This document shows positions 28,837-64,000 of a stretch of DNA of 64,000 nucleotides, in pieces. Under the pieces are notes generated by a model. That model did not search any database. It was given only the letters and a program-made list of their open reading frames with translations, and was not told the DNA's origin. Within the stretch, counting starts at the first letter, position 1, and each line of letters begins with the position of its first letter. Both the position numbers and the translations under genes were made by a program. Origin of the DNA: Trissonchulus latispiculum (taxonomy: Eukaryota; Nematoda; Enoplea; Enoplida; Ironidae); contig JASAND010028005.1 in assembly GCA_030248195.1 (NCBI GenBank), positions 18,939 through 82,938 on the forward strand. Direction: 5' to 3'.

Positions 28837-29270
28837 TTATAACCTTATATGCAGCTTTCGATAATCCCAATGATATTTCCTGATTACTTCTTCAATATAT
28901 TTATTGATTCCTTCATAAGTATCCTTAATAGTTTGTAGTTTGCAAGATTTTTGTGGAATTCTATACTTAGGACCCTTACTGAACAAGGATTCTAATGCAT
29001 CATTTTCTAATACTTTATAATTACCAGTAATTATATGGTTGTGAACATTATCCTTAAATTGAGATCGATGGCAATCGCATGAAAAATCATTTTCGAAATA
29101 AGATTTCAACCATGCATCACAATCGAGGAAGTTTATAGTAGCCTTGCAATTAAATATTTCATTTGCAATGGGTGTTTTATATTTGAAATAAACTGAGGGA
29201 TTGTGTGCTTGCGTTCTACTATTTAAGTAAGGTCAAAATTGTTTACGCTTATCAAATAGAGGCTGAAAAT
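28837..29270 (-). pseudogene. PLE region preceding RT core (C.CH, HIITG motif)
   Basis: Reads through CDCHRSQF, HNHIITGNYKVL and SKGPKYRIP, the conserved order of the Penelope-like N-terminal RT extension. The frame upstream (to about 29270) continues with PSVYFKYKTPIANEIFN. It is interrupted downstream by the TIR element at 26818-28624. Confidence 0.65.
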
Positions 29271-29645
29271 TTATCTTATCTATTAACTTGTTACTAAAAT
29301 TTATGATGATGAAATCTGTTTTTGGTTTTTCGAGAGATTGTTTTATCCTCTAATCGACAGTTAATTATATCCTTAACGAAGTCATAGTTAGGGCTAGAAT
29401 TGTCATGTTCGAGAACTTTTTGTATCTTTTTAATCTGTCTTATACCTGTCTGTGTGAGAACCTTATATAGTTTTCGTTTATTACTACTTAACAAACTTTT
29501 AATTTCATCAGTTGTAAAGAGCATAGAATTTTTTCTATTTCTATTTGTTCTGTTTTTGTTATTAGAGCTGGTAGCGTTAATATTCTTTTTTATCTATAAA
29601 TTATGTAAAACAGAAATTTAGTGTTTTCTCCTAGTAATAGTTTAT

Positions 29646-30045
29646 TTAGACTAACGGATATTTAGTTTTTAAACGTCTTATCCAATAAGCTTCTCTATGT
29701 ATTCTAATTTTTCTGTCCAGAACTTTGTCACTTGTCTCTGGTAGCACTTCAATCATTTGTACATGAAAAGCTTTGCAATTGCCTGTATTGAAATGTGCGG
29801 AAAATCTCAGCAGTGGCACATCTACTGAGCTTGGTTTGTCATACATAGGTTTAGAATTGTCGTCAGTCCTCCAACATTTTGTGTCAACATACCGGGGTTC
29901 GGTAAATAGTTTGCCTCTTGGTGTGGGGGGAAAGGGGGGGGGTACAAACATTAATATTATTATAGTAGCTACTAAATTGTGATCCATCCATATAAAGTTG
30001 GCAGCATTTACAGTTTTTCTTATTGCACATCCTACCAGTACTAAC
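29646..30045 (-). pseudogene. PLE N-terminal Cys cluster and GIY-YIG-like domain
   Basis: CNKKNCKCC lies upstream of, and out of frame with, a 113-codon frame whose end, LLRFSAHF...CKAFHVQMIEVL followed by IHREAYWIRRLKTKYP, matches the second half of a GIY-YIG nuclease as found in Penelope-like elements (Arg, His, then Glu in the E.yWI.rLkT motif). A G-run near 29930 probably causes the frame break. Confidence 0.6.
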
Positions 30046-45263: not shown

Positions 45264-46093
45264 TAAGTACCTTATACGGTCTAACTTTTTGCTTTTAAAG
45301 CTTAAACCAGCAAGTTCACTGGAACTGCTAAAAACATTCTTTTCTCAGCTTCGTCGATCTTCCAAAATAGATTTCTCATCACTGTAGAAACGGAAAATCA
45401 TAATGTGCGACACGATATAGACGACATGTAGCCGAAGGACATTTGAATGCAGCTGAGCCGCATTTAATGGTCCAGAAAATTGTGAACATATTTAAATATG
45501 CAACTAAATAATTAAATAACCGTTCCGAGCACTGATTACCTGAAAACTCAACACTTTTAGATCTCCGACCTAGCTCAAAAAGTGCATGGAAGGTTTCTTT
45601 CAATTTTTATGCCGGATTGAAGCTTGTAGGTCCAGATTTACTCGGAACGATACTACTACCTTCTGTTAGTCCATGTACAACATTGCTCCTATTGTCAGCC
45701 ATGATAACTGACAAGAAGGTTCCGGATTCTATAAATTTACTGATATAAAGATGTATCGTACATTGATTACCACCAAAAGGTTGCGTGTAGTCTGCACTTT
45801 TAGCTAAGTTGTAAATGTTTTAATACATTAAAGCTAGACCGCTGAAGAAAAGAAAAGACTCAAGTTTCCATGGGTAGCCTTGAGCTGCATTAATGCTTCT
45901 GCCATAACATTATCCACACTACAATATGCCTTAGCATATGATATTTCAGGGCTGGAAATTCTCAGAAATGTACCAAAACAACAATATAAGCCTTCAAAAC
46001 AGATCAGTGGCAAGTACGTATACCAGTCCAGGGTTCACTTGTGTTGTATTTCGGGTACTAGTCATTTTTGCAGCGACCAGTTTGCGCCTTCAT
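45264..46093. other. Stretch downstream of paralogue 3
   Basis: No gene that I can support. A minus-strand frame at 45379-45603 has no homologue among the exons described here. Confidence 0.3.
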
Positions 46094-46336
46094 TTACTGG
46101 GATTTAGTTTTGTTTCCAACACTACCGGCAACAGCAGATTTCTTGAGTGATGCTTTTTCAGATCCTGCATCGCCAGATCTGTCAGATTGTTTGATATTTT
46201 TAATGTCAGATGGTTCTTTGCCTCCTCCTTTAGGTCCGCCATTTTCCTGTAGTTGCGAAACGACTTTGTCCATGCTTTCTGCCTTGGCCTTGCCTGGTTT
46301 TTGTGACGTATTCTTGTTTCCTTTAATACTTTGTTT
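46094..46336 (-). CDS. Paralogue 3, exon 9: cytoplasmic tail and stop
   Basis: It begins after GCGTTTTAG in phase 0 and ends at TAA (46096-46094). The 80 residues are rich in Lys, Gly, Ser and Gln, with GGPKGGGKEPSD and GSEKASLKKS. The latter matches the end of paralogue 2. A different frame of the same DNA is also open but does not join to the other exons. Confidence 0.72.
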   Translation of the reverse strand, partial: KQSIKGNKNTSQKPGKAKAESMDKVVSQLQENGGPKGGGKEPSDIKNIKQSDRSGDAGSEKASLKKSAVAGSVGNKTKSQ

Positions 46337-49300
46337 CTAAAACGCAAAGAGACAAATGCTATCAGATCCACACCTATGGATCACTGTTTACCTTGTTTTA
46401 ATTTTATTAAATATTTTGCTCCTTTCTATGAGCTGTAGTTTCTAATAGTTTTCCTCATTGAGACAAATAAAACAAGAGATTGGAAGCAAACCTAAACATT
46501 CAACCGGAAGTAGAGTGCTATCGAGTATCCGCAAAGTTGCGTTAAAATTAGTTAAGCTCGACAAATATTAAATAATTAATTAGTTTGCAGGTAAGTCTAC
46601 AAAAGAAATTACTCCACATTGCAGGCGAGCTCGCACCAGCCGCACTATGTTAACTTAGGTTAAATGGAAAAAAATAGAACGGAATTGGGACAAAAAAGAG
46701 TCACTCTTTGTATAGATACTACTAACGATTCTTACGACTCCTTCACGTGTCCTCTTTCTCTTTCTGATAACAAAGAATATGACAACTCCAAGAACAACGG
46801 CTGCCACTATTCCAAGCACGATCCCCATAGCAATAAGACCACCGCCATTTCCTAAAATTATGTGATAATACAACATGTGATTTCTTTGGTAAAAGTGAAT
46901 TTTGAAATGGAACATTGCGAATCTTGTCATAAGAGACACATGGTGTTTTTTGTTGGTGGCATATGGTAATATTTTAAAATATGATGTATTAAGCTGTTGA
47001 CATGCATTAAGGAAACATCAAATATGGGTTAAATTGCAGAACCAATCAGCCAAGTTGCTTCATCTTAATTGTGTCTGAATCCTTTTTTGACGTTTGCTAC
47101 GATCGCTGATTTTTGAAATTTAAGTTGAAATTTGAAATTTGAAAAGAAAAGCCAATGCTTACCTCCATTGTTATCTTTTGCTAAGCTACTGCTTGAATCC
47201 GCGCGAGCACCTAAATCATGCAATTTATCACCACCACAGCCTTTTGCACAAGTAAAGGATTATCGATTACAAGAACACCTAACTTTTGTAGAAGCTATTT
47301 CAATAACAAGAAAACGTTAATTGAACATGTATCTTTCATTTAGAACGTGTATGGAATACTGCATGCAGACTTGTACGTCTAACGAATTTAAGATTTTGTT
47401 AGAAATCAATCCAGTTTAGTGTTAGAAGAATCGTTGATAAGAAAACTTTTGTGACATTGAAAACTATCCCTCTCTAAAAAACTGCCTTGACAGCCTGCAT
47501 GAAGCGTAGGAAGTTCATTTCAAAGCGCAATCTCAATCAGTGAAGCAATTGTTATAAATACTATTAACTTACACTGAAAAGTCACATTTCTTGAAAAGGA
47601 ATCGACAGGTGATGTGGAGTATGGCCAGAAGAAAACCAATTCTACTGAAACTTTGCATTCTACTGTAAAAGATTGTTTCGTCCAATTGTAGATAATCGAC
47701 ATGCAATTATCGTTTGATGGCGTTCCCTAAAGAATGCAGAAAGGAACTTAGTAATTTACGTAACTTAAATAAGTAACTTAAATTTAATTTTAGTTGACGC
47801 TCAGACAAACGTGTATATTGTGACTCCTTCGTTTTTGTTCTTCAGTAGTTAATTTCTCGAAAGCAGATTTGGAATGTGTGCTTTCGATGGAAAACCAAAT
47901 CGTACACCTCAACACACGAAGTTAAAACACCACAGACTGAAATCTATAATTCATGTCATTCACGTATTGTCAATGGCGATTTGAATCAGTTCAGATATAT
48001 TTAATACCACCAATATTGTATACAGTTAACATGATGTCGACTTTCGATGACTGCCGCACCAGATAGGGACAGATTATATCCTCCTTCATCAAACTTTCCA
48101 CTAAAGCGACTGACTGAATTGAATTGAATGTTTTTAAATCGGTATAGCTGGGATACTGGTGAACGTTTTACAGAAAATTTTTCAGATAACTTTAACACCA
48201 GCCGATATAGATGTTAGAAATCATGTCTACATTGTTATATATTTATTATGTACAAACTTGATCAACATTTGTGATAGCAGCCTTCGTCTGTAGTAAAAAA
48301 TATGGAGTAGAAACATTGCAGCAAACTGTAGTGTTAATTTCCTGGATGCATTCCGCTTCGCTAATGTTGCTCACAACTACTGCTACCATTGACCTGCCTG
48401 TAAGAAACGGAAAGTATGACATTGGAATTATTAGAATATACAGAAACTACCGAAACGCAGCCAATGCAACTGACCTAATACATACTTCATGAATGATGGA
48501 AATATTGATCTGTTATACATTGTTTTCAAGCTTCTGGCCTCTATAAAAGATTTAAAATTGAAGTAAGCATTCTTACTATATGGTAGAATGTATGAATGGA
48601 AAAATCTTTCAGCGTTTTCGTAGACAACATCTCCTTCCCAGCACTCTAGTTTCGATAGTTGTACTTGGTCTGTCGTGTTCTTTATGTTTATCTGCGTTAT
48701 AGTTTTGTTCGAGGATGTACTGAATGCAAAGCTATCTATTTGAAAGCCGCCGCTTAATGAGCAGTATCCTTTCAAAGACGTGGAAATAGTTGCCTTTTGT
48801 GATCTTTGATCAGATGCATCAAAGAAAGAGACACCTCCGTGATACAGTCTTTGTCCACTTTGTTTCCATTTCAGTTCAAGCGATGCACCTAAGCATTGCA
48901 CATGTTCTGACTGGATGCACAGGTACTACGGGTAGAGTATTGAAGTGTCTGGTTTTTTCTTCAAACGTGCATATCAAATAAGCCAAAAGCGTATATTACG
49001 AGAAAATATTGCTATACATCTAGAGACAAGTGCAGTCAACACTGATAGGTTACAAGAGAGTTAACCTTATTAAGATTTACAAAAACGTCCACGTTCGGTT
49101 TGCAGTCATCAGTATCTTTTGAAGTTTTTTATTTTTTCACTAATTTTATGGCTTCCGCTATGCAGTTATTTCTGTCCTTAGTGAATTAAATATTCGATCG
49201 CGCTACAAACTCATTTTCATATCCTATCTATTTTCCGTCTTTATACAAAAGCAGCAATCGGGGCAACTAAAAAGGGGTTCCTGGGTATTTTTGCGTAAAA

Positions 49301-52300
49301 CACGTCCAGTAAGTGGCAAGCCTCTAGCTTGCATAGTAAATGCTTCACAATCGCTGGAAAAAATTGGACATGTTTTTGCTAAAACTACATTTTTTATGAT
49401 TGCAGCGTTCGGGATAGCATTTAGAAGATTACAATGCCATGAATAATCGGCCCCGACGAGACCTTCAAATTAACACCCTTAGTTTAATTTTACGGCTTGC
49501 GTAGCTCAAGATATGGCGGATTATTTGATTTTTGCAAAAATGACAAATTTGAGCGCCAAAATAAGAAAATCAGCTATATCTCACTATAGAGAAAAGCTAG
49601 AAAGGTGCTTCAAAAAGCAAAAATGTAGAGCTCAACAAGATCTTTCGAATGAACACAATCATGGCTATGCAGCCACTGTCTTATTTTTAAAAATTGGCAA
49701 AAACTGCTCTGAACGGAGATGTCGACGTTTTAAAGCGGGATTGCGCGGAGGGTGTTAGAATGCTAAAAGAACTTATTTTGGAAAGTTTCATCAAATTTCA
49801 TCTTGATTTTTACCGTCAACCGATAATATGTGTCCAAAAGGAATCACCACCTTAAATGCACCTGAGTATTATAATGGATTAAATGTTTTATGAGAACTGT
49901 TTCAATATTGCAATTTTTATACTGTGTCTGGAAAGATGGATTATGCATGTCAGCTGATGCTGACATAGCCGGCTTTTTCCTGACCGAGTTGTAACAATGC
50001 CGAATCAGTATTGTTTATGGTGTGTTGGAAGTTTCTTTTGACGCGTACGCCTGCGCTGCTGATTTGTGGGTTTCCCTAGGTTTGCCTTTTCTGCATTCTC
50101 AAAGTACTTAAACTTTACCTTTTCACTTTTGACATAAACTAATCCCCTTTAACTGTTGTTTCTAAAAATAATTCCTAGCCTGTGTTTTCCTTTTTTACCA
50201 AAAAATGCTAACTGATTATCTTCTCCCCTCTTGATTTCTGTGGGATCGTCACGCTTGCAACGCCAATTTTTCTCCCAAGTTTTGGTGGTGGTTCCCCTTT
50301 CCTAGAGCCATGGCGTTATTTAAGAGGAAAGAAAATTAAGGAAAATTCTTTAAATAAATACGAAACTTTTCGGTGAATTTTATTATTTGATTAATGGCTT
50401 CATGTTGGGCTACGTCTAAACTATTGGCAGCACTTGCACTTTTCACCTATGCTTAGTGTGCATATTCTTTCTCGCCTTTAAACATATTGTTTATATCTTT
50501 GACGCTGACACCTGTCAGATCTTAGCTTGCGCTATTGAAATTTTCTTCTTATCCAAGGAAAAGAAAGTAAAGAAAATTTTGTCCCCTCAATTAACGACAT
50601 GGCTGTAATTTCCTGTTATTGTCTCCCCTCATCTTTTATACTTGTATATTATTTATGAGCAGTGAGTGATCGGTCGGTTATTACTCTAGTATTATCCAGT
50701 GGATCGTCCATTGTTATTTCCGAAATTTCTTGCTAATATTGTAATTTGCACTCCTTAGTATTCATTTGTTGTCTCTGGTATTTAATATCAAATTATCGAA
50801 TATTGTTTTCTCAGTTAATTAACTTGGTAGAATTCTAGGACTATCGCGCAATTATTCTGAGGCAGTTTCGTGTAAATTCGTGTCCCCATCCTTTTCTGTT
50901 GACGTCTCCCATTCCTTGGCAAGGTGTAAGTCCTATTCGACCGCCTGGACTAAATATCCCCACTCTTGGTCCTTAGATTTGCTTTCATTGAGTCAGTCCT
51001 AGTAGTGGTCTGAGCTCTGCGGTTTTATTCCCGACTCATCCATTGCATTAGAGCTATGCCTCGGTGGTGTCTCTTATTTTCGTTTATTAGTAAGATTGAA
51101 GCAAGCGCACCTGTAGTTTCATATTTTCCCCCTAAGCGCTCGAATGTATTTAGTCCCTATACAAGCGGCCTAAACTCAACTAAACTTTGGTAAACTAAAC
51201 GAGCTGGTTCCCGCATTGTTGACAATAGGTACTTGCATGTCCGAATTCTAAAGTGTCTACAAAGTAGAAAACAGAAAATCCAGAAGTGTACAGGCTGAGT
51301 ATATACTCTGTGTACAAAACTGCTCACAGAGAATGGTACATGTACACTTTGATCATAAAGATAGTCCCTATAAGCCATGCTCAAAGGGGCTATCTCTATG
51401 AGCAGCACACTGTACCTACTCTGTGTGCTCGAAGCTTTTTGGAGTCGGCTAACTAGCATAATTAATTTAGCTGAGCATATGCTTTAAAAATGGCTTAGGT
51501 TTGGATCACAGGGATTACGACTAAAATTTCAATACATTTCCGGCTTTGCGGGAATTTGTCACTTAGATATCACTATTTTGGCTAAAAAACGTCCAAAAAA
51601 CGTTTTGCTCTTTGCTAAAATATTATAAAAACGTTTTTTGCTAAAACATCGCTGTTTCCTTTAAAAATTAGTAAAAACTTCCTCATAAATGATGTAATTG
51701 TATTGTATGTACACTGATTCTCAATGTTTGTACAGCATCACTGAATGATAAGCGCGACGGCACCAATTCGCTCAATTAGCAATTTAGATTGCGTAATTGG
51801 TTGGTAGTACGATTTTTGTGCATTTACTGCCATAAGTGTATAGAGGGATTCCTCGTCATAATTACATCTGGCACAAGAATTGTAATTAGAATTGTTAACT
51901 CAGCACATTGAGATCTGTAGCTTTAAAGCATGAAAGCATGTGCCAAACGCACCCCGTGATGTATCATGAGCAGCAGCCGTTTGTTAGAAAAGAACAACGT
52001 ATATTTTTAAGCCCGGTTCACACTAGGCAATGTGCAGGCAATTTAATTGCCAGCAATTGAGGAGCAATGGCAATATTCCCAGCAATGCACCCGTTCACAC
52101 TGCATCATCAATATTGCCGGCAATATAGCGGGAAATTCAAAATTTTAGTCCAGCGGCAATATATACGCCGCTATATTTACGTGTTTAATTGCCACAGCAC
52201 AGAGCTTGCTCACTCTCCTAGCTGAGATTGCCGATTGCCAGGAATATTGCTGGCAATTTTACACTGTTCACACTAACAATAAATGGGCAATCTGTCGGCA

Positions 52301-54107
52301 ATCATATTATTGCCTAGTGTGAACCGGGCTTTAGTCAATTAGCGTTGGACATCTAAAAGAATAATTTGTGATACAAACTATAAGGATAAGTTCGTCGTTG
52401 TTAAGTTTTTCGTGTATAAATCCTTCCTCCCTAGATGTAGTGCACAGCAGCATTAGTGTTTACCGCATTTTGATTTATCAACAGCATCATATGCCATAAT
52501 ATGTGACCCATAAGCTTGGGTGAGGCAAGGAGTTGGCTCACTATGTCCAGTATTTAGATTGCAGGTAATCTTTTGCGGCTGGAATAAGTTCTGTGTGAAG
52601 ACAGCAGTTGAGGCCACATTAAGATTACACTGTGTCTGGTGAATTAGGTCGCATGAAGGCATCGATTGTGTCGAACTTGAATACAAGCAAAAGTACTGAC
52701 TCTTGCAATCCAGGTCCTTACAGGACTCGTCACCATATCTAGCTTAAACGTTCAGAAGGACAAAGATAGCGGTTTATGTAAAAGCAAATTTTTGGGTGGT
52801 TCTCAGCATAACGCTAACTGCCGAAGTGTTGACTAAGATCTTGGGTGAAGTATATCTGTCCTTTTCGACTGTGACTGTAAGAATAACCATTAATCTCACA
52901 CAAAGTAAATTTAGGCCATAAATGTAAAATAACTGTGCTGACTGGTGTTAAAAATAACTGTGCTGACTGGTGTTAAGAATACCGGTGCAGTAGATGGAGG
53001 GATTAATCTAGACAAGTTTTAAGCCGCTTTTTATAATCACAAAACAAAAATTTATAAAAAATGTCAACTTAGTCTTAGTAAGATTTGACTTTGTGAAAGA
53101 TTGTTATTGCTTAAATTCCATAGGATCTAGAAAGAATGGAGCGCTTTAATTCATTTGCACTACCCACGATTCAGAGTAATTTTTTACGGATGTTAAATTT
53201 TAGGCTAACACAATATAGCTTATACTAGGTGATCCTCCACAGAAACTAACAATCACTTACACAGTAGGTACGGTATTTGAATTTTTTCACCGGCATTACT
53301 GCGACAGTAGTACTGAGCGGGTCCTATTAACGACTTGTTGAGGTTAATGGTATAGTCGCGGAAGTGCAGGCTTCCTGATCCAACCAGGGTTGTACGCTTT
53401 CCCGACAGCTCCTTCACAAACTCAGCACGCCCCATTGTGTCACCACACAACACTGTAATTTTCCCACCTTCTTGTAGGTAGGAAGTTGGGCTTCCAAATT
53501 CATCTGTAATGTTATACAGTATTCTTGCGAAATTCTTCTGTCCAAGAATGCATACCATATCTAAAGCAATAAGCCACGGCTGTTTCTTAAAGATAAATCC
53601 AACTAAATGGAATATTAACCCAGCTGGTACTTTTTGTAAAGGAAATGATTAAAATGATGAAACTAAAGGCCGGTTTTCGAGCAGCAAGGTCCTGCTAGTA
53701 AAAGATTGAAACTGATCGGTCTTTAGACAGATAAACGAAAGTCACCGGTCGTACTCAAGCTAAGTAGATACGTAGATGATTCTGGACTATACTGTAGCTA
53801 CGGCGCCGACATCGGTAGCAAATGACAAGAGGAACATGATATAATTTATAGGTAAATTGACCAGGATTATAGCTAGAGTTACAGGTTTGTAACACGTGTA
53901 ATGGTAGGTCGGAGGCTAAAGTATTCCATTGGCCGCAAAAACCTACACCCTATGTCTTATTCAGAAGCACATTTGCAACTTTAAGGTCTGAGAATACGAA
54001 AGTCCCTACAACTGATGGAAAAAGTGTTTTACCTAAGCAGATTACAAAAACCAATAAGGAATTAAACTCTTACAGGAAAACGGCAACACAAAAGCAAGTT
54101 TTAGCAT
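46094..54107 (-). CDS. Paralogue 3: complete nine-exon type I membrane protein gene
   Basis: Nine exons join to 1626 nt, 541 residues plus stop, with all phases consistent: 54107-54074, 53560-53261, 52742-52464, 48888-48577, 48397-48258, 47726-47573, 47210-47163, 46851-46736, 46336-46094. Order: signal peptide (residues 1 to about 20), Ig-like domain (to 111), Cys-rich module (to 204), three further ectodomain exons (to 406) with many N-X-S/T sites, Ser-rich stalk (to 422), transmembrane helix (about 428-451) with an RKRKRTR stop-transfer, and a Lys/Ser/Gly tail. It would sit in the plasma membrane with a large glycosylated ectodomain. Tandem paralogues with conserved modules suggest an expanded receptor or recognition family; ligand and pathway are unknown. 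Confidence 0.72.
46736..46851 (-). CDS. Paralogue 3, exon 8: transmembrane helix
   Basis: 116 nt from a CATAATTTTAG acceptor (phase 1) to a GTAAGA donor (phase 0). NGGGLIAMGIVLGIVAAVVL continues as GVVIFFVI, then RKRKRTREGV. It has small-residue faces (G-A-G), which are common in dimerising helices. Confidence 0.8.
47163..47210 (-). CDS. Paralogue 3, exon 7: stalk
   Basis: 48 nt, phase 1 on both sides, between ATGATTTAG and GTAAGC. It encodes ARADSSSSLAKDNNG, a flexible Ser-rich linker that corresponds in place and phase to 18830-18871. Confidence 0.6.
47573..47726 (-). CDS. Paralogue 3, exon 6: WPYS ectodomain exon
   Basis: 154 nt, acceptor GCATTCTTTAG (phase 0), donor GTAAGT (phase 1). 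The core ECKVSVELVFFWPYS and DSFSRNVTFQC align with the paralogue 2 exon at 21071-21218. Confidence 0.77.
48258..48397 (-). CDS. Paralogue 3, exon 5: VCCNVS ectodomain exon
   Basis: The acceptor TTTCCGTTTCTTACAG is strong. The donor GTTTGT after NVDQ is weak but gives the phase (0) needed by exon 6, and aligns with the DWQQ donor position in paralogue 2. The core is VCCNVSTPYFLLQ. Confidence 0.62.
48577..48888 (-). CDS. Paralogue 3, exon 4: PYS-terminated ectodomain exon
   Basis: 312 nt, acceptor CAATGCTTAG, donor GTAAGA, phase 1 on both sides. It contains LELKWKQSGQRLY, GYCSLSG, LSKLECW and FHSYILPYS, in register with paralogue 2 (22741-23049). Confidence 0.77.
49885..51080 (+). repeat. LTR-like segment, copy 2
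   Basis: This relative of 45-960 has the same order of motifs and the same orientation (see the shared 14-mer CCGCCTGGACTAAA at 50941). It is diverged, so the two insertions are not recent duplicates. No internal retroelement coding sequence adjoins it, so it is probably a solo LTR. Confidence 0.4.
52010..52330. mobile_element. Harbinger-type MITE with TTA duplication
   Basis: Perfect inverted ends: AGCCCGGTTCACACTAGGCA and, on the right, TGCCTAGTGTGAACCGGGCT. Both are flanked by TTA (52007-52009 and 52331-52333). Trinucleotide TTA/TAA duplications are typical of PIF/Harbinger elements. The interior repeats GCAAT and ATTGCC on both strands. Confidence 0.85.
52464..52742 (-). CDS. Paralogue 3, exon 3: Cys-rich module
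   Basis: 279 nt, acceptor TTTAAG (a TAG four bases downstream would put the frame out), donor GTAAAC, phase 1 on both sides. It has RYGDESC, CLYSSS, QTQCNLN, KITCNLN and KSKCG. It aligns with 32631-32912. Confidence 0.72.
53261..53560 (-). CDS. Paralogue 3, exon 2: Ig-like domain
   Basis: 300 nt, acceptor TTGCTTTAG, donor GTAAGT, phase 1 on both sides. The Ig pattern is clear: GGKITVLC for the first Cys, then LHFRDYTINLNKS and QYYC for the second. It aligns with 1070-1363. Confidence 0.78.
54074..54107 (-). CDS. Paralogue 3, exon 1: start codon and signal peptide
   Basis: The ATG at 54107-54105 encodes MLKLAFVLPFS and one further base before a GTAAGA donor in phase 1. Joined to exon 2 the hydrophobic run continues (YMVCILG), giving a plausible signal peptide. 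Confidence 0.6.
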
Positions 54108-55289
54108 GTTTCGAGAGCGTCGTACAATTGCTGGATTAAATCACATGTTGCAGTTTGAGAAAGTGAGGAGTGTCTAATGCAGAGTTAACGAGAAAGGTAT
54201 TATTTCATTTAAGGTGCTGGTTCGTGTATTTGCAGCAAACTTTGAAAGACTGTAACTTGATCTATTCAGGGAATTCAACGATAATTTTTATATCATTTTA
54301 AAGCCTGGAATGTGCTTGTTACAACTAGGTAGGTATATATGTTTCAACTTTTCGACTTGAACATGCAATAACAAGAAAGCAAATTTTGAACATGGATTTC
54401 TGGAAATGTGGGAAAGCTAAAGAAAAGCGACCACTTCAGGCTTCAATGTCTTCCCGAGGGCTATTTCTTCTGAAATCTTTTAATAATCAGGTAAACTCAA
54501 GATTTTAAGAACAATGTAAATTTTGTCTGATTCGCCAAAATTTTCAAGTTTGTGTGAAATATTCCTTGAATTTCGTGAAAAGTTGAAACAAACGGTTAAG
54601 GTGGTGATTCCTTTTGGAGACATCAACTTTGAACCGTTATTACTCATTCATTCGTTGGAGTTAAGAAGCCATTTTTATATCGAATTGAAGCTTAACATTT
54701 TTTGTTGCTAATGAATACAAAGAATCAACTTTAGCTCTCGTAAATTATTTTACTACATTTTCGAAGTAATTTAATTTTCCAGATTTTTTTCTGACGAAAG
54801 TAAATGTTTTTGCTAGGCATCGGCTACATAATTCGATTCCACTACACAATACCTGGGGTTCCTTTTTAATTATTATGAAACCACTCTTCGTTATAAATGT
54901 GATGGGTGGTCAAGTTTTCTGTAACATTTTGTGAACCTTCTACATTGTCTGTACATTTTGGTAGCCGTTTTCCCTATCGTGGAGTAGGTACAGTCTGACT
55001 GAGAAGTGGAAAATTCCTGTTATGATGTTCAAATTTGACTGTCAATGTTCAGTGTTTTGTTTTGGCCAGTTTGCAATTAATGGGGTCTTAGATGCAGAAA
55101 AATATTTGATAATAGGCTTATCTTGCAGAATTTTGGGGACAAAATTAAACCCCAAGAAGCCCTTGAGCAAACCATTTTTCATCTTAAAAGATTAGTTTCC
55201 TTTCTTATCGAAAAGAATCACGGTTACTCAAAAAGACTCTTGCGCTTGCCGAAAGGACCATGACTGACAGGACAAAGACTTAAGACGCT
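54108..55289. other. Region between paralogue 3 and the retroelement
   Basis: No gene, and no LTR border could be fixed for the retroelement to the right. Confidence 0.3.
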
Positions 55290-56060
55290 GGGTGACTGAC
55301 CCAGCCACAATTTTGTTTTCTCCCAAGATTGAGTGGGGGGCAGGCTCGCTATGGTTGGGTGGGGTGGGGGAAGAGTGTTATTCTCTATTCTGTGGGCTGG
55401 GGGGGGGGGGGGGGGTGGTGGGGTTGGGGGGGGGGGGGTGGTGGGGGGGGGGGGGCTGGGGGGGGTTTGTTGTTGTCTGTGTGTGTCGGCCCTGCGTCGG
55501 TAAACTAATCTCTTCCTTCACTTTTTCTATTGTTTTTTCTATTGCTGCTGCTGGGGGGCGGGTTTTTTGTGTTTTTGTGGGTGTTGTGTATATGTGGTGG
55601 GTGGTGGGGGACGGTCGGGGTGGTTTGTTGTATGTATTGGTGAAATTATTTAATTTGCTGAAGTGTGTTGTCGCTTTTGTTCTTTTTTTTGATTGTTGGG
55701 GTTGTGGGTGCAGTGTTATTTGGTTTTTGTTGTTTTTGTTTTGTTTTTTTCTGGTGGTGTGTTGGGCTGTGGGTTGTTTTGTGTTGTTCTTTTATTTCTG
55801 TTTGTGTTTGTTGCCTTTGGGGGTTTGTGTCTTTTTGTTTGTGTGTTGTGTATTATGTGTGTGATATTGAATTAAATTTGGTCCTTGGTTAGGGGTGTGG
55901 ATTTTAGCTGGTCGTGAGGCCTGGGTGTGTTGATGTTGATGTTTTGTTAGTTATTGGTTGGTGTTTTGGTTTGGGTGGATTGATTAGATTTACTAAGGGA
56001 GGGGGGCGGGTGAGTATTTATGTGATGTGTTTGGGGGTGGGTGGGGGGGGAGGGAAACCA
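55290..56060 (+). other. Extreme G/T-rich, A/C-poor segment
   Basis: The plus strand is almost only G and T, with G runs of 8-19 at 55398-55470. The 190-codon open frame at 55292-55864 (Phe, Val, Cys, Gly and Trp only, in effect) is a composition artefact. It lies where the 5' LTR or leader of the retroelement would be expected. It could be a real strand-asymmetric sequence or an assembly error. Confidence 0.6.
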
Positions 56061-56449
56061 GTGCTCTGGGTAGTGAATAGTTGTAATTAACCAGGCTAGC
56101 TATTTTTACTGTGGGCCCCGTGGGTGAGTCGACCCCTGGTTTACGAAATTATTGTGTGATTGTATCGTCATAGTTGTAATTTATTTCCATTAATTTGTTA
56201 CTTAAATTACATTACGTAGGCCTTAAATTTTATAATTTCGATTATACGTACGTCTAGGTGATAAACTTTCAAAATTCATAACTTGACACTTTCGTACGAA
56301 TTTTGATGGAACAATTTCTCGTTTTGAGATGCTGCTACGTAATATCGAAACCTAACGATAGTTTTGAGAGAGTATTTTATTTTTCTTGAATTTTTCTTGA
56401 GTCTTCAAACTCCATTTTGTTAGTTTATTAAGACCAACACTGAACAAAT

Positions 56450-59400
56450 ATGCCGAATGAGACAGCTGAGCTTGGGCCGCCTGCGCAGCCAGGGCCCCGG
56501 GGAAATCAGAATCATCCCCCTAGTGTTGAGACACAAGTTTTACAGAAATTAACAGACACGCTTTCGGATTTTAATTCGGCTATTAGGGCGCAAGGAGTCG
56601 CCACTGCCTATAGTTCAGTCCCCATTTACCATGGGAGGCCCTCAGAGTCCTTCGAGGAACATCTCGAAAAATATGACCGTTTTTGCCAGGTCATGGACTT
56701 TGAGGAAGGGCAGAAAATTCTAACTTTCTCAAGTTCGCTCGAAGGCAGAGCATTAGAGCAATTCCGATCAGTGCCAAAAGCTAGTCGCGGAACATGGGCC
56801 GAAATGGTCGAAGCCGCTAAGAAAGTTATGATTCCTCCCCACACGGCGCTGCATGCGTCATCTCTTATGTTTCAAGTGAAACAAGAGAAGGGAGAGCCAG
56901 TGATGGACTACCTTATGAGGCTCAATAGGTATGCGCGACTGAGCTTCACAGAGAAAGATGGTTTTTCAGAAAGTCAGATTGAGGTGCTAAAGTTACGTCT
57001 ATTTTTATTCGGACTAAGAAGTGATTTGAAAGCTCGTGTGCCTCCAGGCTGCAAGACAATGGAGCGCGCGGTTGAGAAAGCATTGCAGGCCGAGGGTGAA
57101 TATCCCGGTGAAGCCTATCCATCTTTTATCGAACCAAACTTCCGAAGTAGCCAGGACACGCCTGCAGCCATTGCAGAAGCCGAGAAAGCTGTTAAAGAAC
57201 TGAAGGCAAAGTTTGAGAAATTTGAAATTGACTCTAAACAGAGCGGAAATTCTGGCAGAAACGGGAAAGGGCGTGACCTGCCTCCAGGCACCACCTGTTT
57301 CAATTGTAACAGACCAGGGCATGTTCGCAGGGAATGTCGCCAACCTGGTGGGGGCGCTTACCGTCCCAATAATCAGGGTTCGGACAGAAACTTCCAGAGA
57401 AGACCAGACGCAAATAGAAATTTTAGGAGTAATCCAAATTACCAAAGTCGCCGAGAAGGAAATTTTGATCAGAATGGTCGCAGAGACCGCTATGAGCCAG
57501 ATAACCGGAATTATCAGGCCGACCGCAGAAATGATCGTGGTCCCAGAAGGGAACAGCACTATGGAAACCAAAATTATGATCGTAGGGATCGGGGTAGAGA
57601 TTTTCCCCCGGAAATGAAGAGGGAATATGGGCCTAAGTTTGCAGTGTCTTGTTCCAAGACACAGGAGGGAGATCGACGTCTTGAGGGCGGATATCCATCT
57701 GGGCGTTATTCGAGTGCCTCCGGATCAGTACATAGTGACTATCAGAATGATCACTATGAAGGTGAGCAATATTATTCTCCCCGCCGCAGAGGAGATTCTA
57801 GGTCCGACTCTTCCGGGCAATATTCGGTTCGCTCTGCGCGAAACATCTCGCGGAATTGTTTGATGCATGCTAAGCGTTGTCTGGTCTCACCTCACTTCCA
57901 ACATAAAGTTTTGATGTGCCGGCAGCCCTTGATCTGTACTTGTCGCGCACCTGAACCGTATGTCCCGTATGAACGACCTGTGGTTAGGCCACCTAGTGCT
58001 AGCTCGTTTACCTCAACTGAGGAGGAACTCTTTGTGCCTGTCCCTCGTAATTCTACCCGTATGCCTAGTGCCAGGCGGGTCCGCAGAGTTCATGAGCCCA
58101 TTGTGGATACCAACACGGTTGCTGTTCAGTGTAGCCTTGAGTCCACCGAAAATAACGTCGAGGTTCAGGGTAGTGAGGAAGATAAGGCTAGTTTAGGTCA
58201 ATTTTCCTCGGTAGTCATGTGCCTACTATGGGTCATGACTGTGTTAGCTCGAAGTTTGAGAAAGGCTGCCTTACCCGCTGCTTGGGTTTTGCTGGCCTTT
58301 TTAGTGTCGAAAGCCAACGCACAGACGCAGGCTGACACCGATTCCTCGCGATTCCTAGCGGACGAGATTGCTAAAATTGGAACACTGGTCTTGCCCCGTT
58401 GGGGAGCAGTTTTGAGTCCCGCAGGGATAGGGGTCATCTCTCAGAAAACCGAATATCTAGCTCTGATAGTACAGCTGGCGGTGCCGCCGATGTCTCCTCA
58501 ATGGAAGCCCCCCGAATGGGCTAATGAGGAGGACTGTATCGATTTAACTACTGGAAAAACGAAGACTGACCAATACTGCGTTCGTATGATTAATCAAAGT
58601 TGCCCGCAGTTTGATTACCTAGAGCGCGAAGTGGATGCTATTAAATTAGAATATCGAAAATTATATTCAGGAGTACTGAATACGCATTTTTACTCGAAAC
58701 TTCTATCTAGTTTGTGCCGATCTACGCCTGGAGTTTGTACGTCATACCCTACACCTGAGCAACAGCATAGCCGACCAAAGCGTTTTATCGAGTTCCTGTT
58801 GGCTGGGGCCCTGGGATTAGGAGGTTTAGCGAATAGTTTGGCTAACACTTATCATATGGGGCAGTTAGATAATCGGGTTTCTGCTGTTGAACACGGATTC
58901 AATGTTTTGCGAGAGGACCAGCTCAAAATTACTGACTCTATCAAACGTATAGTCCACGCGAACGAGCAAGTTTATGCCTTTTTACACCATACCGTACAGG
59001 ACTTGACAACTTTAATTATCCGGGCCAGGTGTTCGAACTTCTCTTATATGCGACAAATTTACATGCAACTTTTAGCGCATATTTTCACTTCTTCTTTGAG
59101 AGATGGCTTAAATTCTGTTATGAGAGCTGGATTGCATTCAGAAATTAACCCGAATTTGATAAATTTGCAAACTTTGAAAGGAATTATCCGAACTCATCCG
59201 TCATTACGGAATTCCTTGCTCAGCCAGGAGCCAAGTTTGATTTACCAGTTTGGAAAAGTTTACCCGATCAAAATTGATTTCAGTACTCTACGTTTCGGAT
59301 TCATGCTGGAAATTCCCGTTCCCCTGGAACAGGAGGTGCGTCCTCTTTACGCCATTCATAACGTCGGTTACAACTCTCGAGAAAATGGAATTACAGCTTT

Positions 59401-62400
59401 GGCGCCTTTACCTGAGTATGCGCAGCGACTAGACACGGGTGAAGTTCGCGAAATTGATGTTTCAGAGTGTAAAACCGCGCCTGGATTATGGTTTTGCCCG
59501 CCTAATGCGATTGTAACTAGCTTAAAAGCAAAATGTCTACAAATCTTAATTAGTCGTCCTATTGAACATATGGGGAAAGAGTTTGAACACTGCCGGGAAT
59601 ATATTCAAGTCAAAGTTTTAGATAATTCCACTATCTACCGCACCACACCAGCAGGAGTTTTAATTAGGACAAATTATACTGAGGTCATTGTCGCTCGTTC
59701 GCCCTCGCTGAATCACGTCGCTGAGGGTGAGAGAGTACCAGTCCCTGCAACTGGAACACTTTGGTTTGAGCACGGACGCTATCTACATTTAATCATAGGG
59801 AATACGATTTTGACCAGCACCTTAGGTGTTGCCAAAACTACCATAACTATGTCGGATTTACAAGAAATTATTGTTCCCGCCCCGTTGGGACGGATCCCGT
59901 TGCACTTCACCGAACTTTCTACCGCCGCTTATGAAAATGAGCAAGCCAAAAACCTAATCCAAAGTCAGGTGAAGAATTATGTGCATCTACCGTTAATACC
60001 CTTAGAGCTTAAGCATGGTTTAGTAATAGTGATTGTAATTGTTTTAGTAGGGTGTTTTATAGTTTGGTGGATTACACCCTGTGGCAGGAAGTTTAGGGCC
60101 CGAATACGTAATCGACGAGGTCCCCCGCCACGACCTGACCGCCCAGCTATCTCAGCCCCGGTAGAGAGCCAAAAGTTACAGGCATCTTTGTTTAGCGATG
60201 ATGAGGAGGAACCTCCCCTAGAATTGGGAAACCTATCGGTTAAGAGTGATCCTATGCCGTACCGGCCACGAGAAAATTTAGAAACTTCTTTCGCAGAAGG
60301 AAATCGTAGATCAATGGCCAACCGTTGCCACGTGATGGCACACTACAAACCTATGTCCCGAGACACATCTTATGCCTCTTCTATGTCCGACTACGGGCAT
60401 GACCACCTGGACCTGAGTTCTCGGCCTATGACTGATGATAGTCAGGAAAGTCAACCGTCACCGCTAATTGACTTAGATTTCGGAAATGCAAAAGGAAAAG
60501 GAGAAAGAATCGTGCGCTTTTCACGACAGGTAACTTTTGAGGGTTCGGAGGAAGATAATAGTGGGTCACCTGGCCATACACAGGCTGACGCCGCCACGAG
60601 TCCTTTTAAGCGACATGTTAGGCCCACTAGTCCTGAATCTGACGGATCAGGACCACAGACTCGCTCAGGCATTAGGAATTCCGGAAGAACTGTGAATGCA
60701 CATTCTGTTTTGATGGTACGAACCATACCGTTAATGATCAGTTTGCTTCTGGTAGGTAGACCAGTGGATGCGCTTTTTGACACTGGCTCGTTAGTATCTG
60801 TCGTCTCGCAAAGTTTGGTCGAAAAGCTGGGCTTAACCACTACGCCTGTAGAAACTTTAGGCTCACTTCGCACCGCTAACGGGGGAAAATGTCAAATTTT
60901 GGGGTATGTTAAAATACCGATTCTTTTTCGTGGAGCCGAAAGACGTTTACCTGTTCATAACTGGAAATTTTTAGTGGTTGAAAAACTTACAACAAACTGT
61001 ATCCTAGGATCTGATTTCATGGTAACTTTTCCTGGAGAAATTTCCTTAGATCTGGGGCAGCACACGATAACTTGGCCAGCGCTTGATGGCACCCGTGTGA
61101 CCTTGCCTCTTACTATACCGGCTAAACAGAAAACGAGCAGAACTTTTCAGATAGGCATGACCAAACGTGAATGTTGTACTTGTCAACTGGAGGAGGAAGT
61201 TGTTTCCCTGCCTCCTAGGCCGTTACCTATGATTTACGTAAATCTGAATGGGCAACTCGTGCAAACTTTATTGGATACCGGCGCAAATTTGAGTTTAATG
61301 AATGAAAGTTTAGTAAGACATTTAAGGCTGAAAATTCTACCTATGGATAGACCACTACATGCGGAAGGTGTTAATGGCCAAGCCTTAAAATTTCGGGGAG
61401 CCGTCAAAGTTCCAGTTGAATTTTATGATACGCCTGGGGTTACTGTTGAACACACCTTCTTGGTACCAAAGGGTTTAGCAGAAGACTGTTTAATTGGAAC
61501 TGATTTTCTATACGAACATGGAGGGGATTTGACTTTAAGTTTTGTGCAGGGTGAATTAAGATTGTCAAAGCCTGAGAGACCCCCCATGATTGCCAAATTG
61601 ATTCATCACACGCCTGTTACGCAGACTGCCTATAGGGTGTCAGCAATCAGGAAAGTTACAATCCCTGCTTACTCTGAAGTCACTGTGCCTGCTTTAGTTG
61701 AAAGTATGGACAAATTAAAATATGACGGATTTTTTGAACCTTCTGAATTGAAATTTGAGAGCAATGACTCTTCTATTCAAGTCATGCCTGCTATGGTTAA
61801 TTTGAGACAAAGATTAATTCCGGTTTTAATGAAAAATAAAACGGGTCAGCCGTTGACTGTCTACGAAAATTCTACACTGGGTAATGTTACACCTCAAAAT
61901 GAACTTAGGAGAGGTCAAATTATGCGTGAGTACAAGCCGCTTGTCAATGAACATGGTGAGACAGTCTGTCTCAGAAACTCATTCAAGTCTAATTATGCTC
62001 GGGGCACCAAGGGAAACCAAAATTTCAACGTTAATACCTGTAAACTTAATCGTCCGTGCAAATTGAATGACCTCCCTGAGGCCATGCGCGAAATTTCTTT
62101 CGACAAGGAAAATATGAGTGAGAATGAAATTGGACAATTTCTTGGACTCTTGAATGTGAACAAAATTTGTTTTTCTCAGCATCCGTTTGACATCGGAAAA
62201 TGTACGATTTTTAAAGCACACATTAATACGGGTGAGTCAAAACCGATTTACGCCACCCCTTACAGGCTACCCGTGCATTTACGGCAACCTCTACTGGAAG
62301 AACTTACTGAGATGCTAAAATACGGATTAATTAGACCATCCACTAGCCCTTGGAGTTCACCTATGATTTACGTCCCAAAACCGGGTGGGAAATTGCGACT

Positions 62401-63715
62401 GTGCGTAGATTTTCGAAAAGTCAACAAAATTAGCGACCCTGACGTCTATCCTATCCCGCGCATTGATGATATTATGACATCTCTAAAAGGATCAAAATAC
62501 TTTTCTACCATTGACTTGAGTAAAGGATTCAACCAAATTGAATTAGATGAGGAGTCTAAGGCTAAGGCTAGTTTTAATACTTTTCATGGCCAGTTTGAAT
62601 ATAATGTTTTGCCTTTCGGGTTAAAATGTGCACCAGGCAATTTTCAGCGCTGCATGGAGCGAATTTTAGGAGATCTGCAATGGAAAAAGTGCATTATTTA
62701 TATCGACGATATTTTGATTTTTTCCAAAACATTTGAGGAGCATCTGGAAATTATGCAGGAAGTTTTTGATCGACTACGCGCAGCTGATTTAAAAATGAAT
62801 CCGGGAAAGTGCCACTTTTTGAAAAAATCTGTGACGTACCTTGGGCACATTATTTCGGAACTAGGTGTTGAGCCTTTGAAAGAGCGAATTCAGGCTATTC
62901 ATGACTTGGCTGTACCCAAAAACATCAAGGACGTCGAAAGTTTTCTGGGGATGTGCGCTTATTACGCGAAATTTATTAAGGGTTTTGCCCATTTAGCCGC
63001 GCCACTTTATTCGTTGAAAAAGAAGGGAGTGCGTTTCGTCTGGAATAATACTCACCAGCAATCTTTTGACTTACTCAAGAAAAGTTTGGTCGAGGCACCT
63101 GTACTCGCGCACCCTGATCTCGCGAAAGGATTCATTTTACACACCGATGCTTCTGACTTAGGATTAGGCGCCGTGCTATCACAAGAACAGGATGATGGTA
63201 AATACCATCCTGTCGCATATGCCGCTAGATCATTAAAGAAATATGAGAGAAATTACTCCACCCATGATAAGGAATGTTTAGCTATGAAATTTGGTATTGA
63301 ACATTTTCGTCACTATTTATACGGAGGTCCCCCATTCACTTTGTTTACCGATCATTCTGCCTTGAGATGGCTAATGAAACATCCCCCACGAAATTCTCGT
63401 TTAGCTAGATGGCAGATGACCTTTTCAGAGTATGACTTCGAAATTAAACATCGGAATAACCCCCAACTTCGAAACGCTGATGGACTTTCACGAAATCCAC
63501 TTTTTGCCGATATTGCTAAAGGTCTACTTGGAGATGAAAAAGAGAATGATCGGAAATTCGTTCAAGTTTATCAAGATGAGAGTGAAGATTTAGTCGCTCA
63601 CATAAACATGGTAGTTGTACGAGATGGAGCCCGAAGGGCCCGAGATCCGAACGTGTCAGTGGTCAACAAATTACGCGCAAAAAAGGGTGTAACTACTGTT
63701 CGATCCAAAGTTTAA
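56450..63715 (+). CDS. Retroelement polyprotein, 2421 aa: Gag, Env-like, two retropepsins, RT, RNase H
   Basis: Start ATG has A at -3. Gag-type capsid homology spans about residues 45-220; a CCHC knuckle is at Cys283, Cys286, His291, Cys296; an Arg/Asn/Asp/Tyr-rich linker follows to about 470. Residues 590-1208 form an envelope-like module. Retropepsin-like domains have DTGS at 1444-1447 and DTGA at 1609-1612. RT follows (RPSTSPWSSP at 1962, catalytic YIDD at 2084-2087), then RNase H with Asp2233, Glu2275, Asp2301. RT sequence and RNase H place it in the Ty3 (Gypsy) group. No integrase is fused; the ORF ends after an RNase H tail. Usual Ty3-like order is gag-pro-RT-RH-IN with env last, so the internal Env-like module and doubled protease are exceptional. 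Confidence 0.88.
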   Translation: MPNETAELGPPAQPGPRGNQNHPPSVETQVLQKLTDTLSDFNSAIRAQGVATAYSSVPIYHGRPSESFEEHLEKYDRFCQVMDFEEGQKILTFSSSLEGRALEQFRSVPKASRGTWAEMVEAAKKVMIPPHTALHASSLMFQVKQEKGEPVMDYLMRLNRYARLSFTEKDGFSESQIEVLKLRLFLFGLRSDLKARVPPGCKTMERAVEKALQAEGEYPGEAYPSFIEPNFRSSQDTPAAIAEAEKAVKELKAKFEKFEIDSKQSGNSGRNGKGRDLPPGTTCFNCNRPGHVRRECRQPGGGAYRPNNQGSDRNFQRRPDANRNFRSNPNYQSRREGNFDQNGRRDRYEPDNRNYQADRRNDRGPRREQHYGNQNYDRRDRGRDFPPEMKREYGPKFAVSCSKTQEGDRRLEGGYPSGRYSSASGSVHSDYQNDHYEGEQYYSPRRRGDSRSDSSGQYSVRSARNISRNCLMHAKRCLVSPHFQHKVLMCRQPLICTCRAPEPYVPYERPVVRPPSASSFTSTEEELFVPVPRNSTRMPSARRVRRVHEPIVDTNTVAVQCSLESTENNVEVQGSEEDKASLGQFSSVVMCLLWVMTVLARSLRKAALPAAWVLLAFLVSKANAQTQADTDSSRFLADEIAKIGTLVLPRWGAVLSPAGIGVISQKTEYLALIVQLAVPPMSPQWKPPEWANEEDCIDLTTGKTKTDQYCVRMINQSCPQFDYLEREVDAIKLEYRKLYSGVLNTHFYSKLLSSLCRSTPGVCTSYPTPEQQHSRPKRFIEFLLAGALGLGGLANSLANTYHMGQLDNRVSAVEHGFNVLREDQLKITDSIKRIVHANEQVYAFLHHTVQDLTTLIIRARCSNFSYMRQIYMQLLAHIFTSSLRDGLNSVMRAGLHSEINPNLINLQTLKGIIRTHPSLRNSLLSQEPSLIYQFGKVYPIKIDFSTLRFGFMLEIPVPLEQEVRPLYAIHNVGYNSRENGITALAPLPEYAQRLDTGEVREIDVSECKTAPGLWFCPPNAIVTSLKAKCLQILISRPIEHMGKEFEHCREYIQVKVLDNSTIYRTTPAGVLIRTNYTEVIVARSPSLNHVAEGERVPVPATGTLWFEHGRYLHLIIGNTILTSTLGVAKTTITMSDLQEIIVPAPLGRIPLHFTELSTAAYENEQAKNLIQSQVKNYVHLPLIPLELKHGLVIVIVIVLVGCFIVWWITPCGRKFRARIRNRRGPPPRPDRPAISAPVESQKLQASLFSDDEEEPPLELGNLSVKSDPMPYRPRENLETSFAEGNRRSMANRCHVMAHYKPMSRDTSYASSMSDYGHDHLDLSSRPMTDDSQESQPSPLIDLDFGNAKGKGERIVRFSRQVTFEGSEEDNSGSPGHTQADAATSPFKRHVRPTSPESDGSGPQTRSGIRNSGRTVNAHSVLMVRTIPLMISLLLVGRPVDALFDTGSLVSVVSQSLVEKLGLTTTPVETLGSLRTANGGKCQILGYVKIPILFRGAERRLPVHNWKFLVVEKLTTNCILGSDFMVTFPGEISLDLGQHTITWPALDGTRVTLPLTIPAKQKTSRTFQIGMTKRECCTCQLEEEVVSLPPRPLPMIYVNLNGQLVQTLLDTGANLSLMNESLVRHLRLKILPMDRPLHAEGVNGQALKFRGAVKVPVEFYDTPGVTVEHTFLVPKGLAEDCLIGTDFLYEHGGDLTLSFVQGELRLSKPERPPMIAKLIHHTPVTQTAYRVSAIRKVTIPAYSEVTVPALVESMDKLKYDGFFEPSELKFESNDSSIQVMPAMVNLRQRLIPVLMKNKTGQPLTVYENSTLGNVTPQNELRRGQIMREYKPLVNEHGETVCLRNSFKSNYARGTKGNQNFNVNTCKLNRPCKLNDLPEAMREISFDKENMSENEIGQFLGLLNVNKICFSQHPFDIGKCTIFKAHINTGESKPIYATPYRLPVHLRQPLLEELTEMLKYGLIRPSTSPWSSPMIYVPKPGGKLRLCVDFRKVNKISDPDVYPIPRIDDIMTSLKGSKYFSTIDLSKGFNQIELDEESKAKASFNTFHGQFEYNVLPFGLKCAPGNFQRCMERILGDLQWKKCIIYIDDILIFSKTFEEHLEIMQEVFDRLRAADLKMNPGKCHFLKKSVTYLGHIISELGVEPLKERIQAIHDLAVPKNIKDVESFLGMCAYYAKFIKGFAHLAAPLYSLKKKGVRFVWNNTHQQSFDLLKKSLVEAPVLAHPDLAKGFILHTDASDLGLGAVLSQEQDDGKYHPVAYAARSLKKYERNYSTHDKECLAMKFGIEHFRHYLYGGPPFTLFTDHSALRWLMKHPPRNSRLARWQMTFSEYDFEIKHRNNPQLRNADGLSRNPLFADIAKGLLGDEKENDRKFVQVYQDESEDLVAHINMVVVRDGARRARDPNVSVVNKLRAKKGVTTVRSKV
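56570..57340 (+). other. Gag domain with zinc knuckle
   Basis: Residues about 41-297. YHGRPSESFEEHLEKYDRFC and the following helical region fit the Retrotrans_gag capsid family. CFNCNRPGHVRREC (57296-57337) has exact CX2CX4HX4C spacing for RNA binding. Confidence 0.85.
58217..60073 (+). other. Envelope-like module inside the polyprotein
   Basis: Residues 590-1208. Met590 starts a hydrophobic segment (AALPAAWVLLAFLVSKANA) with a likely signal-peptidase site after Ala624. A furin-type site R775-P-K-R778 is followed by a Gly/Ala/Leu-rich fusion-peptide-like stretch (FIEFLLAGALGLGGLANSLA) and a heptad-like helical region to about 860. CPPN-type cysteines lie near 1025, N-glycosylation sites are scattered (NQS, NFS, NST, NYT), and a transmembrane helix spans about 1190-1208. 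These are the parts of a class I-type fusion glycoprotein. A pyrimidine tract and TAG (58205-58214) lie just before Met590, a possible splice acceptor. There is no stop after the helix; the frame runs on into the protease. Confidence 0.75.
60740..61560 (+). other. Two tandem retropepsin-like domains
   Basis: Domain 1, about residues 1431-1540: VDALFDTGSLVSVVS and later CILGSDFM. Domain 2, about 1595-1703: VQTLLDTGANLSLMN and later CLIGTDFL. Each has an active-site Asp (1444; 1609) and an ILG-like hydrophobic motif (1518-1520; 1681-1683). The two are clearly diverged in sequence, so the duplication is not recent. Confidence 0.8.
62330..63500 (+). other. Reverse transcriptase and RNase H domains
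   Basis: The RT runs from about residue 1945 to 2140, with KLRLCVDFRKVN, FSTIDLSKGFNQI, LPFGLKCAPGNFQ, IIYIDDILIFS and YLGHIISE in order. RNase H (about 2225-2345) has LHTDASDLGLGAVL, DKECLAMKFGIEHFRHYLYG, FTDHSALRWL and RNADGLSR. All catalytic residues are present. Confidence 0.92.
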
Positions 63716-64000
63716 AAATTCCTCAACCTTTAGTTCTAGTAGCTCGGACGAGGAGAAAAGCCAACCCTCGCCGGAGAAGCAACCGAAACTGAAAAGTGCT
63801 GGTAAAATTTCTAGTTCGGATTCCGAAGAATTGGAACCAGAGGTTAAAAAGATCTGTTAGGCCAAAAATCTTAGACTTGGACTACCCTAGTAAGGCCTAT
63901 GAAAAGTCGCTAGAACCGCGACCCGAACGTCGGCTATCTGATACTGGTCGCCCTAAACGGAATGACCCGACCACAGCCATGTTTAGCGAGGTCTTTCACC
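63716..64000 (+). other. Sequence after the polyprotein stop; open in other frames
   Basis: One frame off the main ORF, a Ser/Glu/Lys-rich stretch (SSSSSDEEKSQPSPEKQP) runs to a TAG at 63858-63860. The next frame over is open from about 63846 to the window end (KILDLDYPSKAYEKS, then PERRLSDTGRPKRND). This may be the start of a second ORF or of a part reached by frameshifting; integrase would be expected further right. Confidence 0.45.

Follow-up and report, generated by a model that had tools for sequence, protein, structure and literature searches.

We analyzed a 64,000-nucleotide stretch of DNA from the nematode Trissonchulus latispiculum (contig JASAND010028005.1, positions 18,939 to 82,938 of the forward strand; this whole stretch is called the window). 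The window carries a copy of a Ty3/Gypsy-type retroelement in which an envelope-like (Env) module lies in frame between Gag and the protease. This in-frame Gag-Env-Pol layout is old and strongly conserved. The reading that we favor, at slightly better than an even chance, is that the element is a long terminal repeat (LTR) retroelement, possibly an endogenous virus, in which the Env-like glycoprotein is an internal segment of a single translated polyprotein. The order in this polyprotein would be Gag, Env, protease (PR), a second PR, reverse transcriptase (RT), RNase H, integrase (IN) and an OTU cysteine protease. The name "envelope" is given to the module from its features and its position, and is qualified accordingly.

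Order and conservation of the coding parts

Positions 56450-63715 of the forward strand form an ATG-started open reading frame (ORF) of 2421 amino acids, one of two closed ORFs of at least 200 amino acids in the window. This ORF was searched against Pfam in four pieces. The piece at 56450-58216 matched Retrotrans_gag (3.9e-07) and zf-CCHC (1.7e-05), and the piece at 61877-63712 matched RVT_1 (4.8e-40) and RT_RNaseH (1.1e-38). In the piece at 60074-61876, two stretches matched aspartic protease families. The piece at 58217-60073 gave no Pfam family above the cut-off. A preliminary description of this DNA had claimed a single frame of 2421 codons in which an envelope-like module stands between Gag and the protease, RT and RNase H. 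This is borne out, except that two tandem retropepsins were found where one protease had been claimed. The frame is continuous up to 63715, as had been described; its end there is damage. The window copy stops between RNase H and IN, in the linker at 63434-63715, and other copies run on to IN and OTU. The window ends with the contig at contig position 82,938, 285 nucleotides past this stop.

To find other copies, the genome (733.8 Mb in 21,732 contigs) was searched with the Env module. Of 1148 first-look candidates, 71 matches were scored, with 82-100% identity, so that the family has at least 71 copies. No stop codon was present inside the Env match in 65 of 71 copies, which is far beyond chance, and 18 of the 71 have open frames of 3341-3396 amino acids around Env. 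The order of the parts was then surveyed in 50 copies (30 from the search and 20 lower in the list), taking Env plus at most 1.5-1.9 kb on each side. The order Gag, Env, linker-protease piece was observed in all 50. The Gag match was in the Env frame in 49 copies and the linker-protease match in all 50, the latter being reduced to its first 46 residues in L019 and to its first 234 residues in L049. The preliminary description had asked whether other copies share this order; they do, and Env after Pol was seen in none. Damaged copies exist, but the fetched stretch is stop-free in 21 of 50, without stops separating the parts; in copies L031-L050 the stretch can include non-coding leader, where a stop is not always damage.

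The frame was followed past RNase H in two copies of different clades (L053 and L054), and in both it runs through IN and ends with the OTU cysteine protease. Pfam found Integrase_H2C2 and rve after RNase H in L053, and the same stretch was read in L054. OTU (PF02338) scored 29.3 and 28.9 bits in the two copies (cut-off 23.3). The motif of OTU cysteine proteases, D-G-N-C-x-[FY]-R-A, was also read, and matches of this part to solved structures were weak (best E 0.058). Between L053 and L054, identity is 81% in IN, 66% in OTU and 39-44% in the linkers.

The envelope-like module comprises 619 codons (58217-60073, forward strand). Its boundary with Gag at 58216 was set by alignment, not by experiment. 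Gag, Env and the linker-protease piece were scanned for hydropathy with a 19-residue span and a threshold of 1.4. Gag contains no segment at this threshold, and Env contains only three. The first (residues 17-35) belongs to a predicted internal signal peptide at 58217-58321, with a cut after A-N-A (residue 35) predicted by eye. The second (residues 190-208; 58784-58840) is fusion-peptide-like and directly follows R-P-K-R, a furin-like site (residues 186-189; 58772-58783). The third (residues 601-619; 60017-60073) is a putative transmembrane helix followed by TPCGRKFR, which is invariant in 7 of 7 representatives. Thus, the internal signal peptide, RPKR site, fusion-peptide-like segment and transmembrane helix described earlier could all be located by hydropathy and motif. 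The linker-protease piece has one hydrophobic segment, at residues 209-227 (score 1.82), where the first protease domain starts.

These features are shared. Among nine aligned Envs, A-x-A before Q, R-x-K-R (9/9), the hydrophobic segment and the transmembrane helix are kept, and 11 cysteines are invariant. The module also has four N-glycosylation sequons. All seven representatives have basic residues ahead of the signal core and after the transmembrane helix. Class I fusion proteins are characterized by a signal peptide, R-x-K-R with an adjacent hydrophobic segment, cysteines, sequons and a C-terminal transmembrane helix. The module has the signal peptide, the furin-like site with its adjacent fusion-peptide-like segment and the transmembrane helix of this set.

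Evolutionary rates were calculated from 27 of the 50 copies, namely those that are stop-free in all three pieces and long enough (23 were dropped; the values cover 60 of 351 pairs). The ratio of nonsynonymous to synonymous change (dN/dS) was at most 0.03 for Env wherever synonymous distance (dS) was measurable, 0.03-0.11 for the Gag part and 0.01-0.13 for the linker-protease part. Of the three pieces tested, Env is under the strongest constraint. The dS values are about 2 or more between clades A and A2, and are saturated between A/A2, C, B and D. Across these saturated clades, amino-acid identity is 80-92% in Env, 54-76% in the Gag part and 52-83% in the linker-protease part. Maximum-likelihood trees of the three pieces gave the same five clades, four of them with several copies and the fifth consisting of the single copy L041 on a long branch. 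Because the clades are the same in the three trees and the module is constrained, the module is an ancient component of the element and has been co-inherited with it.

Some rows of clade A shift position among the three trees. L001 also has a mosaic appearance: its synonymous distances to L004, L007 and L012 differ strongly among the Gag, Env and protease pieces. For example, dS between L001 and L012 is 0.94, 1.74 and 0.28 by piece. These two patterns suggest recombination between copies or element lineages.

Expression of the envelope-like module

In the polyprotein that we favor, ribosomes would run from Gag into the internal signal peptide, which would bring the Env part to the endoplasmic reticulum. 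Signal peptidase would cut after A-N-A, and a furin-type protease would cut at R-x-K-R and expose the fusion-peptide-like segment, which might then act in membrane fusion. The C-terminal transmembrane helix would stop transfer and Pol would emerge in the cytosol; in other words, Gag and Pol would be cytosolic and Env luminal. The paired retropepsin of the element itself would free Pol from the Env tail. This scheme would also allow for an additional, Env-skipping RNA as a source of soluble Pol. A similar topology is known from the capsid-glycoprotein-replicase polyproteins of flavivirus-like RNA viruses. The membrane-anchored Env-Pol chain proposed in the preliminary description fits the topology signals; it has to be lengthened, given that two other copies extend through IN and OTU.

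The choice of an internal Env is based on its start. Position 1 of Env is methionine in four of nine aligned Envs, which are the window-like rows, and valine or leucine in the five from clades C, B and D. Because this first methionine is kept in only four of nine Envs while the signal peptide, R-x-K-R and the transmembrane helix are, an internal polyprotein Env is the likeliest form. Translation of Env from an ATG of its own at 58217 is disfavored by the same absence of methionine in five of nine aligned Envs.

Several observations weigh against the polyprotein. We regard it as possible, and less probable than the polyprotein, that splicing separates the parts: an intron over Env, or over the Gag tail and Env, would be removed to give Gag-Pol or Pol, and/or an Env message would be spliced from an upstream exon. 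The frame would then be open only because the intron also codes. All 27 clean copies retain the acceptor-like AG at 60754-60755, which follows a pyrimidine-rich stretch and directly precedes the first retropepsin, despite the saturation of synonymous sites between most clades, and this AG may be the acceptor (3′ splice site) of an RNA from which Env is removed. When synonymous codons were redrawn at random, none of 200 redraws gave such a site there in all seven representatives; the Env region gave 10/200 and the Gag region 0/200, and this test was run after the site had been seen, with a null that takes no account of shared ancestry. Gag also has donor-like sites of matching phase that score at least 7/9. 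One, at about 57096, is present in all 11 rows examined of clades A, A2 and C and in none of five from B and D; another, at about 57762, is present in six of seven rows of A and A2 (L012 lacks it) and in none of the nine from clades C, B and D. Inside Env, the seven representatives share one weak donor-like site. The last Gag interval before Env shows low synonymous change (0.70, mean 0.92), a level to which some Env intervals also fall, and clades A and A2 do carry an ATG at the Env start. Splicing has a precedent in Drosophila endogenous retroviruses, where env RNAs are spliced (in one subclade, from within gag), according to the accessible part of the report (PMC12992720). In contrast, a scan of 16 rows found no donor scoring at least 7/9 at a position shared by the five clades; the leaders of four copies, that of the window copy being partial, contain no donor above 6/9; and the seven representatives share no acceptor-like or donor-like site ahead of Env within the part of Gag that was aligned. 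Should the conserved acceptor be genuine, Env would lie in an intron and would be removed to make soluble Gag-Pol, which is the reverse of retroviral logic. The hydrophobic residues 209-227 of the linker-protease piece would alter the proposed topology if they were inserted into a membrane. Because of this stretch and the donor-like sites at about 57096, our assessment shifts slightly toward splicing and away from the polyprotein.

The remaining counterpoint concerns what the module does. It has no homology to a known fusion protein in Pfam or PDB. More fully, it matched no Pfam family above the cut-off and nothing in NCBIfam, gave against PDB one meaningless match by sequence (E 1.1) and none by profile, and had no relative among the phage records, viral contigs and prokaryote contigs searched. 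A fold model from nine sequences, one of which (L045) has a visibly disrupted N-terminal stretch, had a mean predicted local distance difference test score (pLDDT) of 32.1 and was unusable. Instead of a fusion glycoprotein, the module might be a protein that is cleaved from the polyprotein and is secreted or membrane-bound, for example a membrane anchor for Pol or Gag, or a protein acting on host cells. The dN/dS of at most 0.03 is low for an entry protein and is in keeping with such a role. We consider this role improbable, however: the signal peptide, R-x-K-R with its hydrophobic segment, the 11 invariant cysteines, the four sequons and the C-terminal transmembrane helix stand in class I order. 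Finally, the damage in the window copy, with its early frame end and its unrecognisable 5′ LTR end, might suggest that the arrangement is functionally meaningless, a chance chimera or a decayed insertion confined to one copy. The probability of this is close to nil; it is ruled out by the order in 50 of 50 copies, the strong purifying selection seen in dN/dS and the trees with five clades.

Other features of the element and of the window

All parts of the element in the window are on the forward strand. Gag (56450-58216) contains the Retrotrans_gag match at 56726-56944 and a CX2CX4HX4C zinc knuckle at 57293-57343, and its tail is poorly conserved. A linker, presumably cytosolic, lies at 60074-60697 between the transmembrane helix and the protease. 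The first retropepsin domain (60755-61018; Asp_protease_2) has the motif DTGS and the second (61238-61510; gag-asp_proteas) has DTGA. The two are tandem relatives: a query with the second cross-matched the region of the first at 32-35% in three loci. RT (62372-62854) corresponds to RVT_1 and RNase H (63041-63433) to RT_RNaseH. Among solved structures, the best match of RT is Ty3 RT (4ol8, 1.2e-76), and for RT-RNase H the best two PDB matches, 4ol8 and 7q5b (Ty3-G), are ahead of other viral RT chains.

The 5′ leader occupies 56133-56449. Homology to other copies begins sharply near 56133: in 35 of 40 rows other than the window copy itself, it starts at 56129-56134 (query 330-335). Upstream of the leader in the window copy, a primer-binding site and LTR end were not recognisable, and a repeat search of 52000-64000 revealed no LTR. 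One 86-bp segment, 55263-55348, matches the region ahead of the leader in another copy and is a possible LTR remnant. The intervening 55349-56132 is strand-asymmetric, with 82% G+T (A 10%, C 8%) and long G runs, and represents either a GT-rich repeat or poor-quality assembly; at the counterpart of this segment, two other copies and the C480 LTR are balanced in composition.

C480 is the sole copy for which both flanks were fetched. It has direct repeats at 28365-29798 and 45742-47125 of its contig with 87% identity, which correspond to LTRs of 1434 and 1384 bp. The element is about 18.8 kb long, with about 5.4 kb between the main ORF and the 3′ LTR. There is no TG at the outer LTR start, which may be truncated, and no target duplication was shown. 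A primer-binding-like site starting with TGG lies 2 nucleotides past the LTR end, and C14750 and C21565 have it at the aligned place.

Small ORFs are present downstream of the main frame, three in each of three copies and two in the fourth copy examined (loci L052 (1209-3443), L059, L060 and L061). These accessory ORFs are mutually paralogous (about 27-40%), and C-x2-C and C-P-N-x2-C are invariant in nine aligned sequences. The three accessory ORFs of one copy matched no Pfam family above the cut-off, and a fold model of the accessory protein from nine sequences was unusable (pLDDT 44.9).

Elsewhere in the window, Pfam matched the only other closed ORF of at least 200 amino acids (420 amino acids; 37023-38285, forward strand) to a double jelly roll-like domain at 16.7 bits (E 0.0045), below the cut-off of 27. 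Two tRNA-like genes lie on the reverse strand at 3996-4069 and 4489-4561 (Rfam 49.8 and 32.8 bits). For the former, ARAGORN gave a CTA anticodon, and it is possibly a suppressor-like or decayed tRNA.

Comparison with known retroelements

The origin of enveloped retroelements from capsid-only ones, and the way in which they express Env, are open questions. In textbooks, env follows pol and is expressed from a spliced RNA, and in insect endogenous retroviruses and errantiviruses env is placed after pol. In contrast, Env in the T. latispiculum family comes before the protease piece in 50 of 50 copies, and a further difference is that none of the nine Envs matched Baculo_F at E<=10 with the Pfam sequence profile, a result that leaves room for distant kinship. 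The likeness to errantiviruses lies in the Ty3/Gypsy-type Pol and in an Env with signal peptide, furin site, fusion peptide, cysteines and transmembrane helix, as far as the accessible text of PMC12992720 describes them; in the same text, insect endogenous retroviruses express env from a spliced subgenomic RNA.

With respect to Metaviridae (Ty3/Gypsy), the family has the order PR-RT-RNase H-IN, with OTU after IN, and LTRs with a primer-binding-like site in C480. Ty3 and other single-ORF Metaviridae resemble it in the RT-RNase H match and the CX2CX4HX4C knuckle. To our knowledge, they have no Env, OTU or accessory genes. Troyka elements of animals mostly have a single Gag-Pol ORF, no envelope and a knuckle of CX2CX8-10HX4C, according to the available part of their description (PMC12440569). 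The present family differs from them in its CX2CX4HX4C knuckle and its envelope-like module.

The closest layout is that of Burro. These planarian giant Gypsy-like LTR retrotransposons have env in frame between gag and protease, and the accessible part of the report calls this the first case (PMC6431247). Thus, the order that the preliminary description regarded as non-standard does differ from env after pol, and it has a published precedent. In the open-licence literature searched, some of it available in part, an in-frame env between gag and pol was found only in PMC6431247, and the accessible text of PMC11410931 mentions Burro only in passing. No report of OTU in a Gypsy-type Pol was found in the open-licence literature searched, which is weak evidence of absence. 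Burro and the present family share the in-frame Env between Gag and protease, a Gypsy-like Pol, very large size and accessory ORFs, and both have extra domains, some in Burro being tied to ubiquitin pathways and the one here being OTU (PMC6431247, accessible part). The same text gives Burro more than 30 kb and BCL2, MATH/TRAF, Ubi2/SUMO-like, BIR, ankyrin and dUTPase-like domains. None of these was found at E<=1 in the four pieces of the window ORF with Pfam, a weaker test given that some of those in Burro came by HHpred. In contrast to Burro, which was compared by description only, this family has the tandem retropepsin, the C-terminal OTU, the Cys-motif accessory paralogs and a length of 18.8 kb in one copy.

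Together with Burro, the family suggests a second route to an enveloped retroelement. We propose tentatively, at not quite an even chance, that this lineage makes its glycoprotein in the manner of RNA viruses: one message would give a polyprotein that is threaded twice through the membrane and then processed by signal peptidase, furin and a retropepsin with two domains in a single chain, with an OTU deubiquitinase and accessory proteins in addition, a domain set unlike that described for Burro. The layout is that of Burro, the domain set is different, and evidence for the age and constraint of the layout is added here.
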